From positions 4,084,372 to 4,148,371 of the forward strand of contig NZ_HG964497.1 in NCBI RefSeq assembly GCF_000613125.1: DNA of 64,000 nucleotides, given 5' to 3'. This document shows, piece after piece, positions 15,735 through 20,824 of the stretch (the first letter of the stretch is position 1; the number at the start of each line of letters is the position of its first letter). This stretch comes from Bacillus sp. EB01. GTDB taxonomy: Bacteria; Bacillota; Bacilli; Bacillales; Cytobacillaceae. Both the position numbers and the translations under genes were made by a program. The notes below the pieces were generated by a model. The model did not search any database, was not told where the DNA came from, and worked only from the letters and a program-made list of their open reading frames with translations.

Positions 15735-16642
15735 TTCATTTTGCGCAATTCGTCTAGGAATTTGTCGAAATATGTCGGGAGAGGTGCTTCAAATTCAAGA
15801 TATTCACCAGTACGTGGATGCTTAAATCCAAGTATTCCCGCATGCAATGCCTGCCCGCCTAGATCGAGGGTTTTCTTAGGTCCGTATTTCGGATCACCAA
15901 CAAGCGGATACCCAATATATTTCATATGGACGCGTATTTGATGGGTCCTTCCCGTTTCCAGCTGACATTCAATAAATGTGAAATCTCCAAGCCTTTCGAG
16001 AACATGGAAATGTGTCACAGCATGTTTCCCGCCATCAACGACAGTCATGCTTTGCCTGTCCCTGGCATCCCTCCCAAGCGGAGCGTCAACCGTCCCATAG
16101 TCGTGCGGAATGGTGCCGTGGACAATTGCTTTATATTTTCTGGTAACTGTTTTTTCAACAAGCTGATTCACCAGGCTCTCATGAGCCATATCGTTTTTTG
16201 CCACCATTAGAAGCCCTGAAGTGTCCTTATCAATCCTGTGGACGATACCAGGCCTAAGAACCCCATTAATGCCCGACAAATCCTTGCAATGATGCATCAA
16301 CCCGTTGACAAGCGTCCCTGTCAAATGTCCTGGCGCAGGATGGACAACCATTCCTTTAGGCTTGTTTACAACAAGAACATCACTATCTTCGAAATAAATA
16401 TCAAAATCCATTGGTTCCGGCACTACATCAAGCTCTTCCGGATCCGGAATCGTTACTTCAATCACGTCATTCAGCGCGCACTTATAATTTGTTTTGACAG
16501 GCTTTTGATTGACAAGTACGTTGCCTTCTTTAATCCAGGCCTGCACCTGGGTCCTTGACCATTCTTCATTAAGGGATGCAACTACCTTATCTATCCTGTC
16601 ACCCTTCTCTTTATCAAGAATGGTGTGTTCCATCTTTTCCAT
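15731..16642 (-). CDS. ylyB: RluD-family 23S rRNA pseudouridine synthase (YlyB)
   Basis: This 303-residue protein has an N-terminal S4 RNA-binding domain (about residues 14-70) and an RluA/RluD pseudouridine synthase domain. The catalytic Asp138 is in HRIDKDTSG. In E. coli, RluD modifies helix 69 of 23S rRNA; the exact target here is not shown by sequence. It overlaps the end of lspA by 29 bases, and its ATG at 16642 has AAGGAG seven bases upstream. Length and position equal B. subtilis ylyB. Confidence 0.95.
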
Positions 16643-17108
16643 ACGATTTCTCCTTCTTCATTTCCCGTTCTTCTTTTATCATTTGTATCATCAACAGAAA
16701 TACTCCAATAACAAGTGCGGAATCCGCGATGTTGAATACTGGGAAATTGTAGTTAAATATGAATGTGTGGATGAAATCGACTACTTCCTGCCGGTGCACA
16801 CGATCGATAAAGTTGCCAATCGCCCCTCCCAGCATAAAACCCAGAGAAACACCTAGCAGAGTCTTGCCCTTAGTCTCTTTCTGGATGTAATACACGATTC
16901 CAATGATTACAATGACGGTTATTACATAAAACAGCCACATTTGCCCCTGCAAAATGCCCCAAGCAGCACCCTTGTTGCGGTGTGACGTTATATAAAGGAA
17001 ATCATTTATAACCGGAATGCTATCTCCTATATTCATATATTTCACAATCAGCCATTTCGTAATTTGGTCCAGTAGGATAATAAAAGCCGCAATTAAGTAA
17101 TAAAGCAC
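16614..17108 (-). CDS. lspA: Lipoprotein signal peptidase (signal peptidase II)
   Basis: LspA (164 residues) cleaves signal peptides of diacylglyceryl-modified prolipoproteins in the membrane. The two catalytic aspartates are Asp102 (GNFIDRV) and Asp129 (FNIADSA), and four transmembrane segments are apparent. I chose the GTG at 17108: it gives MLYYLIAAF, matching the MLYY start of B. subtilis LspA, and has GGAGGG eight bases upstream. An ATG at 17126 would place its own codons over that site. The C-terminal tail is highly charged. Confidence 0.96.
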
Positions 17109-17247
17109 CAAATAAACCCTCCACATCTTCTCGATGACTTCTAATGCATTTTAGCACAAACATGCAATGCTGCACAAAAATAATTGGATTTTCTAAATAG
17201 GTACTTATTAAATTCGAGAAAACATGACCCTTTTTAGCAAATAATGT

Positions 17248-17254
17248 TGTCGAA
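17248..17254 (+). promoter_or_regulatory. Possible Spo0A box upstream of the NlpC-like gene
   Basis: TGTCGAA matches the core Spo0A-box heptamer about 90 bp before the start of the NlpC/P60-like gene. One heptamer is weak evidence, and no convincing promoter hexamer pair is placed around it. Confidence 0.25.
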
Positions 17255-17344
17255 CAGTTCTTTATAAAAAGTTGAAACGAAATATGATTCCTCTTCGACT
17301 ATTGTGTTGTGTCAAACAAATTCACTTAATTGGGGGTCATCAAA

Positions 17345-17833
17345 ATGGCAGTACGGTTTCAAGTTTCAAAGGGGTTAATAGTATGGGGAGTAATTTTGGC
17401 GTTGGTTGTTTCTATGTTTGCAGTTCCATTCACCAAGAAGGCGGAGGCATCAGTATCCTGGGGGCAGGAAGTTACCGAAGTTGCGAAGCGGTATATCGGA
17501 ACACCATATAAATGGGGCGGTACAACACCTAAAGGCTTTGATGCTTCAGGCTACACTCAATTCGTTTATAAAAAGTCTGCTGCAAAAATCAGTCTGCCTC
17601 GTACTTCAAAAGATCAATATAAGATTGGCAAAGCTGTAGCGAAGAAAAATCTTAAAGAAGGCGATCTTGTATTCTTCAACACGGATGGCAAAGGCGTATC
17701 ATTTGTTGGTATCTATCTAGGCAAAAACAAATTTATCGCCGTTACTGTAAGCAAAGGGGTTTCCATCCAATCCATGGATTCAAAGTATTGGAAGGACCGC
17801 TATGTCGGGGCAAAGAGAGTCTTAAAGCAATAA
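17345..17833 (+). CDS. NlpC/P60-fold protein with all catalytic residues replaced
   Basis: A 162-residue secreted protein: a short positively charged N-terminus, a hydrophobic segment (about residues 10-28), a probable cleavage site near AEA-S, then one NlpC/P60 domain. The fold motifs are clear (YIGTPYKWGGTTPKGFDxSGYTQFVY and FVGIYLG). However, the catalytic Cys is Ala67 (GFDASGY; codon GCT), the catalytic His is Phe120 (SFVGIYLG), and the usual third-residue His is Ala132 (FIAVT). The protein should therefore not hydrolyse peptidoglycan peptides but may still bind them. I chose the ATG at 17345, nine bases after a GGGGG ribosome-binding site; a TTG at 17330 is unlikely. It is alone on the plus strand between lspA and ileS, where B. 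subtilis has ylyA. Confidence 0.9.
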   Translation: MAVRFQVSKGLIVWGVILALVVSMFAVPFTKKAEASVSWGQEVTEVAKRYIGTPYKWGGTTPKGFDASGYTQFVYKKSAAKISLPRTSKDQYKIGKAVAKKNLKEGDLVFFNTDGKGVSFVGIYLGKNKFIAVTVSKGVSIQSMDSKYWKDRYVGAKRVLKQ

Positions 17834-18043: not shown

Positions 18044-20824
18044 TTATTCTTGTGAACCCTCGTTAGAGTAGGATTCCTTTACAACACTAGCGCAACGCGG
18101 GCATAGTGTAGGATGATCAGGATCCTCGCCAACCTCTGGGGTAACAACCCAGCAGCGTTCACAAGTTTCGCCTTCAGCTTTAGTTACAACTAGTGCGGCA
18201 TGCTCAAGCTTAATTGCATTCTCAGGCGCTTGGTCATACGTACCGGCGACTTCGAATCCGGATACAATAAACAGCTGCTTAACATCCTCATCAATCGAAT
18301 CGAGCAAAGCCTGGCTTTTTTCATTAACATATAAAGTCACTTTCGCAGTCAGGGACTTGCCGATGACTTTTTCATTACGCGCTTCTTCCAATGCTTTTAA
18401 AACATCGTCACGAAGCTTCATGAATGAAGTCCACTTTTCTTCTAGTTTTTCCCCATTAGCCATCTCTTTATGTTCCGGCATATCTGTCAACTGTACGCTT
18501 TCTTCCTCGACTCCAGGGATAAAGCCCCATACCTCGTCGGCAGTATGCGAAAGAATTGGTGATACAAGCTTAGTCAGCGAAACAAGTGATTCATACAGGA
18601 CAGTCTGGATAGCCCGGCGTTCCTTATTGTCAACTGCTTCAATGTAGAGAACATCTTTTGCAAAATCGAGATAGAATGCACTTAAATCCAGCGTACAGAA
18701 ATTATTTACTGCATGGTAGATAACAGAATACTCATAGCGTTCATAAGAATCCCTTACCTGTTTAATCAGCTTGTTCAGCTTAACAAGCATGAACTGGTCA
18801 ACCTCACGCAATTCTTCATACGGTACCGAATCTGTTGCGGGATTGAAATCAGCAAGGTTTCCGAGCAAGAATCTGAACGTATTCCGGATTTTGCGATAAA
18901 CCTCTGATACCTGTTTCAGGATGGCATCGGATACACGGACATCCGACTGGTAGTCTACTGATGATACCCACAGGCGGAGAATGTCTGCACCCATCTGGTC
19001 CATTACCTTCGCTGGCACCACTACATTGCCCAGTGACTTACTCATTTTCCTGCCTTCACCATCAAGGGTAAAGCCATGGCTTAGCACTCCCTTATATGGA
19101 GCCTTTCCTGTCACTGCTACTGCAGTTGATAAAGAAGAGTTAAACCAGCCGCGATATTGGTCAGAGCCTTCCAGGTAGAGGTCTGCAGGACGCTGCAGGT
19201 CTTCTCTTTCTTCCAGTACTGCCTGGTGGGAAGAGCCGGAATCAAACCAGACATCCATGATATCCGATTCTTTCGTGAACTTGCCATTTGGCGACGCAGG
19301 GTGTGTAAACCCTTCTGGAAGCAGATCGTTTGCTTCTCTTTCAAACCAAATATTTGAGCCATGTTCACGGAACAAGTTTGAAACATGTTCAATCGTTTCA
19401 TCAGTGATGATTGGCTCGCCGTTTTCACCATAGAACACCGGGATTGGCACACCCCAGACACGCTGGCGGGAAATACACCAGTCCCCACGGTCACGGACCA
19501 TGTTGAACAGGCGGGTTTCACCCCAAGCCGGTACCCATTTCGTTTCCTTGATTGCCTCAAGCAAATCATCGCGGAAATCCTTGATGGAGGCAAACCATTG
19601 GGCTGTTGCCCGGAAAATAACCGGCTTCTTCGTCCTCCAGTCATGTGGATAAGAGTGAGTGATGAATGAAAGTTTAAGCAGGGCGCCTGATTCTTTAAGA
19701 GCCTCTGTAATTGGCTTATTAGCTGTGTCATAAAATAGACCTTCAAAGCCTTCAGCTTCTTTTGTCATAACACCTTTATCATCAACAGGACTTAGGACAT
19801 CGAGGCCATATTTCTGGCCGACCTGGAAGTCGTCTTCCCCGTGGCCAGGAGCGGTATGGACACACCCGGTACCAGCATCTGTCGTTACATGCTCCCCAAG
19901 CATAACCAACGAATCACGTCCGTAAAGCGGGTGGGCAGCGACAACATATTCAAGATCGCTTCCTTTAACCTTCTTGGTCACTTCCCATGATTCCCAGCCA
20001 ATTTCTGTCGCGACTGCTTCTAGTAGTGCTTCAGCAACAAGATAGCTGCCGCCGCCTGCAGTAACTACAACATAAGTTAATTCAGGATGGACTGAGATTC
20101 CCAGGTTAGCAGGAATAGTCCAAGGTGTTGTTGTCCAGATGACAATGCTAGTGTCCGTATCCAATACGCCCTTTCCATCCTTTACCTTAAACCCAACATA
20201 AATCGATGGAGATTTCTTGTCCTTATATTCAATTTCAGCTTCCGCAAGGGCAGATTCACTGGAAGGAGACCAGTAAACAGGCTTAAGGCCTTTATAGATA
20301 TAGCCCTTTTTAGCCATTTCTCCAAATACCCTGATTTGCTGTGCTTCATAAGCTGGCTTAAGCGTGATATAAGGGTTTTCCCAGTCACCCCGGACTCCGA
20401 GCCGTTTGAATTGTTTTCTCTGGCTGTCGATTTGCTCCAGAGCATATTCCGTACAAAGCTTACGGAACTCGGCAATCGTCATTTCCTTGCGCTTAACACC
20501 TTTATTGGTCAGTGCCTGCTCGATAGGAAGGCCGTGTGTATCCCACCCAGGTACATAAGGTGCATTATAGCCGGTCATGGATTTGTGGCGGACAATGATG
20601 TCCTTCAGGATTTTATTGAGCGCATGCCCAATATGGATATCACCATTGGCATACGGAGGGCCGTCATGCAATACATACATTGGGCGGCCTTTTGTCCGTT
20701 CCTGTACCTTGGCGTAGATGTTCATTTCATTCCACTTTTGCTGAATTTCTGGTTCCCGCTTTGGAAGGTTTCCGCGCATCGGAAAATCCGTCTTCGGCAT
20801 TAACAACGTGTCTTTGTAATCCAT
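18044..20824 (-). CDS. ileS: Isoleucyl-tRNA synthetase
   Basis: IleS (926 residues) is a class I synthetase that charges tRNA-Ile and edits Val-tRNA-Ile. The HIGH motif is at residues 64-67 ([10 protein letters not shown]), KMSKS is present in [10 protein letters not shown], the CP1 editing domain lies between them, and a C-terminal zinc finger has CERCW and CPRCA cysteine pairs. This is the eubacterial IleS1 type. The ATG at 20824 has GGGAGG upstream. Expression is controlled by the T-box leader described separately. Confidence 0.98.

Follow-up and report, generated by a model that had tools for sequence, protein, structure and literature searches.

A conserved, catalytically dead NlpC/P60 protein family of Bacillales with an ECF-type promoter and recurrent linkage to IseA genes

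The locus and the predicted protein

In the window (the whole 64,000-nt stretch analysed, from genome G000), the gene under study lies between lspA and ileS, with the following features on and around it:

16614..17126, minus strand: lspA, divergent neighbour
17248..17254, plus strand: TGTCGAA element, resembling a 0A box, 97 nt upstream of the ATG
17273..17302, plus strand: ECF (SigX-type) promoter, TGAAAC-N17-CGACTAT, also kept in orthologues, relocated copies among them
17332..17337, plus strand: ribosome-binding site GGGGGT, from the sequence
17345..17833, plus strand: coding sequence of a non-catalytic NlpC/P60 protein, 162 aa plus stop, from the open reading frame and Pfam
within 17345..17833, plus strand: signal peptide, residues 1-35; domain, residues about 40-160
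18044..20824, minus strand: ileS, convergent neighbour

The frame is open throughout and follows a ribosome-binding site, as the original prediction had it, and the accompanying claim that signal peptide and fold motifs are intact agrees with the signal-peptidase motif AEA at residues 33-35 (A33 and A35 are nearly invariant across the dead clade described below), with a match over the full Pfam NLPC_P60 model (PF00877, 1-105/105, E=8e-33) and with a predicted LytE-like fold. When the protein is aligned to live enzymes, Ala67, Phe120 and Ala132 occupy the Cys/His/His triad positions, which bears out the reading that the nucleophile, the His and the third catalytic residue have all been replaced. 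Its 162 residues include no Cys and no His, so that a Cys-His site cannot be restored by another residue, and a displaced catalytic Cys was rejected. The Cys-His-His/Asn triad that defines an active C40 D,L-endopeptidase is therefore missing from the window protein, and it is missing clade-wide. A functional link to lspA or ileS was also rejected, since the gene lies elsewhere in other genera and in the second of two copies in genome G007.

An AlphaFold2 model of the protein reaches a pLDDT of 96-98 over the domain, and a Foldseek search with it finds B. subtilis LytE (8i2d; 43% identity, rmsd 1.3 Å, TM 0.91 on the target), E. coli MepS and C. difficile Acd24020 among the nearest solved folds, the LytE-IseA complex (8i2e) following closely. 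The predicted likeness to the LytE catalytic domain (8i2d/8i2e) covers both the fold and the substrate-site residues; LytE, however, is an active D,L-endopeptidase, whereas the window protein has all of its catalytic residues replaced and consists of a single secreted domain only. In the YkfC-dipeptide structure, Tyr226, at the transition-state position, forms the gamma-D-Glu site together with Trp228, Asp237, Ser239 and Ser257 (PMC2954226). Equivalents of all these residues (Tyr55, Trp57, Asp66, Ser68 and Ser88) are present in the window protein. Of these, Asp66 and Ser68 never vary across the dead clade, perhaps solely because the fold requires them; Trp57, Arg86 and Ser88 vary as they do in live enzymes, position 57 being mostly Trp or Tyr; and Tyr55 is replaced by Phe in 26 of the 57 dead sequences compared with 0 of 76 live relatives. 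Compared with random sites, six substrate-site positions showed no significant excess of conservation in the dead clade (P=0.08). The residue pattern is what a domain that had lost catalysis and retained its pocket would look like, conservation of the groove being descriptive only, and muropeptide binding by the window protein is plausible with the S1-site residues kept. The domain is also strongly basic in the dead clade, with a median net charge of +13 against 0 in live enzymes.

A dead clade under purifying selection

All 57 dead sequences have Ala at position 67, 55 have Phe at position 120 and 55 have Ala or Gly at position 132, so that the dead state is conserved among orthologues; the copy in G004 has Cys120 and Thr132. 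In a maximum-likelihood tree of dead and live NlpC/P60 sequences, read without a shown root, a branch supported at 100/99 separates the 57 dead sequences from the live ones, with a single label change, and the simplest reading of this tree is an apparent single origin of the dead state. The original prediction had spoken of three independent losses, a count that does not hold for this gene: the three changes, in whatever order they arose, are shared across the clade. Judged by sequence, the window protein is a member of a conserved, secreted and catalytically dead NlpC/P60 (LytE-type) family of Bacillales. A search of the open-access literature, with subscription papers outside its scope, found no description of such a clade.

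The dead gene occurs in six of eight genomes of the genus (G000, G001, G003, G004, G005 and G007, the last with two copies) and is missing from the other two, and the same triad state is seen in named Neobacillus, Peribacillus and Niallia and in unassigned Bacillus relatives. A nucleotide pattern for FDASG[FY]T was found at 27 places in 25 of 193 genomes of the GTDB family, representing 9 genera, compared with 3 places for the reversed pattern in the same genomes; among genomes sampled from the order, 32 of 397 carried it, from 16 genera. The distribution is patchy. Phage records gave only matches below 60% identity. One dead NlpC/P60 copy lies on the Priestia megaterium megaplasmid pFDU301A (L278:6001-6489), at a place where the plasmid table lists no gene. 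Separate from the dead clade, genome G446 (L142/L189) encodes one protein with three NlpC/P60 domains in the arrangement dead-live-dead: the first has FDASG with the His kept, the second is live (FDCSG, SHVG), and the third has FDTAG and no His at the usual His position.

Pairwise dN/dS among genus members (NG86) is 0.02-0.12, similar to or lower than the 0.04-0.12 of a live paralogue, although many dS values are saturated and the ratios are good to an order of magnitude only; they indicate purifying rather than relaxed selection. The G003 copy (L170) carries TGA in place of the codon for signal-peptide Trp14 and is otherwise conserved, and is possibly a recent null allele. G40, Q72, Y92, K93 and T134 are conserved in the dead clade and not in live relatives, as are T71, G155 and K150 in an entropy comparison, and these positions point to a new constraint. 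With a dead state that is clade-wide, apparently of single origin and under purifying selection, the proposal of a retained non-enzymatic role in place of decay is strongly supported.

Elements upstream of the dead gene

Among 52 dead-gene upstream regions, 15 have the GAAAC form of the promoter, where 2.7 would be expected, and 26 have the wider G[ACT]AAC form, where 2.6 would be. It is preserved at the relocated second G007 copy, where the surrounding intergenic sequence differs. A sigma-70 promoter scan of the dead-gene upstream region gave one weak match, under the shuffle mean. A SigX orthologue was found in 13 of 13 genomes tested, and 13 of 14 sigX genes have an autopromoter of the form TG[AT]AAC-N16/17-CG[AT]CT; the sigX promoter of G000 itself, GTAAC-N16-CGTC, is not identical to the dead-gene promoter. 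In one lineage (f47), the dead gene sits at the sigX locus, after SigX (NCBIfam SigX, 268 bits, cut-off 260) and a 392-aa open reading frame, and has its own promoter, GTAAC-N17-CGAC; the 392-aa product has no family match and is perhaps an anti-sigma factor. The exact promoter pattern shows no enrichment in the G000 genome (3 matches, against 5 for the reversed control). The dead gene is probably under the control of an ECF sigma factor, probably SigX, and is a putative member of its regulon. Just 3′ of one of three exact GAAAC-N17-CGACTA matches in G000 lies a lipoprotein gene (L241:998-1495), whose co-regulation with the dead gene is possible.

The Spo0A 0A box has the sequence TGNCGAA, and a possible box upstream of the gene had been taken as a hint of sporulation. 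The box is real and commoner than chance, TGTCGAA or its complement being present in 17 of 52 upstream regions against 1.7 expected, in loci that are not independent. In most GAAAC-type loci its distance to the -35 element downstream is about 26 nt, and in G001 and G004 it is degenerate. Because of this position, upstream of a conserved ECF-type promoter, the sporulation reading is not specifically supported. TGTCG elements are conserved upstream in the window and in L106, L114, L091, L094 and L098, often in tandem and about 22-23 nt apart, with about 26 nt separating the nearer element from the ECF -35 downstream, and they look like a putative regulator-binding site.

Linkage to IseA genes and candidate roles

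IseA (YoeB) is an inhibitor of NlpC/P60 D,L-endopeptidases. The neighbourhoods of the dead gene differ between genera, with genes for the IseA domain (PF16800) as the recurring partner: they lie within about 2 kb of the dead gene at 10 loci in four GTDB families (G131, G129, G057, G179, G010, G091, G096, G381, G504 and G322). Among family genomes, 10 have both genes and 7 of these have them within about 2.5 kb, for which the chance is about 1e-17 at 0.2% each, a rough assumed estimate of window length over genome size, or 1e-6 when only three lineages are counted. In the flanks of 53 IseA loci, a subset of the IseA places and in many cases with flanks of no more than 1.5 kb, a dead NlpC gene lies in four places and a live NlpC/P60 gene in none, although per genome live genes outnumber dead ones several-fold. 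IseA occurs in 10 of 25 dead-positive and 27 of 168 dead-negative genomes of the family (Fisher P=0.008, kinship ignored). IseA as an obligatory partner was rejected, many dead-gene genomes being without it; an IseA above the cut-off is present in just 17 of the 53 genomes positive for the motif. In the linked IseA proteins an ADGGS segment is retained; it aligns with GDGDNLL in B. subtilis IseA, and we infer it to be the inhibitory loop. Neither the IseA linkage nor the SigX link had featured in the original prediction.

The linked IseA domain either stands alone as a secreted protein or forms the C-terminal part of an FG-GAP lipoprotein. At L273 and L194, two lineages that are apart in the dead tree, a response regulator, a histidine kinase resembling WalK (below the cut-off), an IseA lipoprotein, IseA and the dead NlpC gene follow one another on the same strand. 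The lipoprotein, 560 aa long, combines FG-GAP-like repeats with an IseA domain at its C-terminus (L273:3768-5447, L185:2773-4488, L194:6449-8158); its cassette with the response regulator and histidine kinase sometimes follows a SigX-like sigma gene, and the lipoprotein is also found without a dead NlpC gene.

D,L-endopeptidases are autolysins both essential and dangerous. The reading that we put forward, tentatively and at somewhat less than even confidence, is that the dead protein is a secreted non-catalytic regulator under SigX-type envelope-stress control that competes at the D,L-endopeptidase site. Envelope stress would activate a SigX-type ECF sigma factor, and the dead protein would be secreted into the wall, where it would occupy the site used by live D,L-endopeptidases, the L-Ala-gamma-D-Glu-mDAP stem peptide. 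Where IseA is present, it would also occupy the stem-peptide-mimicking loop of that inhibitor. Local endopeptidase activity would thereby be tuned without cutting, probably as a brake through substrate competition or shielding. The dead triad, the selection on the gene, the basic domain, the ECF-type promoter and the linkage to IseA and sigX come directly from the computation, and the LytE-like fold from its predicted model; stress-induced secretion and the tuning of endopeptidases by site occupancy we infer. For the window copy, we favour substrate-site competition over a decoy for IseA, because G000 has no canonical IseA and the two genes are nearly complementary in the genus: canonical IseA is in G002, G004 and G006, and, of these, only G004 also has the dead gene. 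Two alternative brakes fit this distribution better than a decoy and its target.

In the decoy alternative, the dead LytE-like domain would titrate IseA through its stem-peptide-mimicking loop and so relieve the inhibition of live enzymes. The recurrent adjacency across four families and, within the dead tree, several subclades, the close linkage in family genomes, the lack of live genes in the IseA flanks, the retained ADGGS motif and the predicted match to LytE in its complex with IseA all speak for it, but IseA is missing from many dead-gene genomes, adjacency fits a co-acting brake equally well, and the window genome has, besides the near-complementarity in its genus, only a weak and unlinked IseA-like match (26.7 bits, cut-off 29.9, no ADGGS). 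We consider such titration unlikely, and similarly doubtful is the broader idea of a Bacillales enzyme-inhibitor-decoy circuit, in which a LytE-derived pseudo-endopeptidase under a SigX-type stress promoter soaks up IseA-type inhibitors. IseA itself belongs to the same D,L-endopeptidase system, and its gene is the neighbour at the 10 loci, but its fold is unrelated to the enzyme-derived domain of the window protein; it inhibits by an unstructured region placed in the groove (PMC12700454). In B. anthracis, the IseA-like protein IpdA is a proposed inhibitor of the deacetylase PdaN; it shows that proteins of the IseA fold acquire new partners in Bacillales, but it is not itself an NlpC/P60 protein (PMC12700454). 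The sub-threshold match in G000 is a secreted 236-aa protein outside the window (L258:4743-5453; C1:4209518-4209928), which might be an IpdA-like inhibitor.

A pure peptidoglycan-binding or scaffold protein, anchoring or recruiting others and leaving D,L-endopeptidases unaffected, has a precedent in RipD (Rv1566c) of Mycobacterium tuberculosis (PDB 4JXB/4LJ1), a secreted NlpC/P60 protein with its nucleophile Cys changed to Ala and its His lost (A83/S132/E144), whose domain is reported to bind peptidoglycan and to be non-catalytic (PMC12067865). The high basic charge, which favours the anionic wall, and a weak match to the NCBIfam RipD profile (NF033743, 57.9 bits against a cut-off of 215) are in keeping with this role. 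The triads differ, however (A/S/E in RipD, A/F/A in the dead clade), identity to the window protein is 28% by fold search, and the window protein has neither a second domain nor the C-terminal pentapeptide repeats of RipD. A scaffold would also leave the IseA and SigX links unexplained, links absent from the RipD source (PMC12067865), and we think it improbable.

Less probable still is a co-receptor that binds muropeptides, the products of D,L-endopeptidases, and reports to the neighbouring histidine kinase and IseA lipoprotein. The linked cassette and its WalK-like kinase suggest it, as does B. subtilis WalRK, a repressor of iseA that is responsive to D,L-endopeptidase activity (PMC7299342), but most lineages, and the surroundings of the window copy, do not have the cassette, and the window protein has no membrane anchor. 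That the gene is a pseudogene or a slowly decaying duplicate is highly improbable: patchy presence and the premature stop in G003 would suit decay, but the conserved promoter and clade-specific residues argue against it, and the dead triad kept across genera, the tree and dN/dS rule it out at the clade level.

If the regulator reading is true, a pseudoenzyme tied to IseA and SigX adds a regulatory layer to wall homeostasis, and the dead protein, IseA and SigX form a three-component system open to direct testing. Plasmid matches to the wider family, where annotated, carry the labels 'C40 family peptidase' or 'NlpC/P60 family protein', and members of the dead clade would plausibly receive such labels too, though unable to cut.
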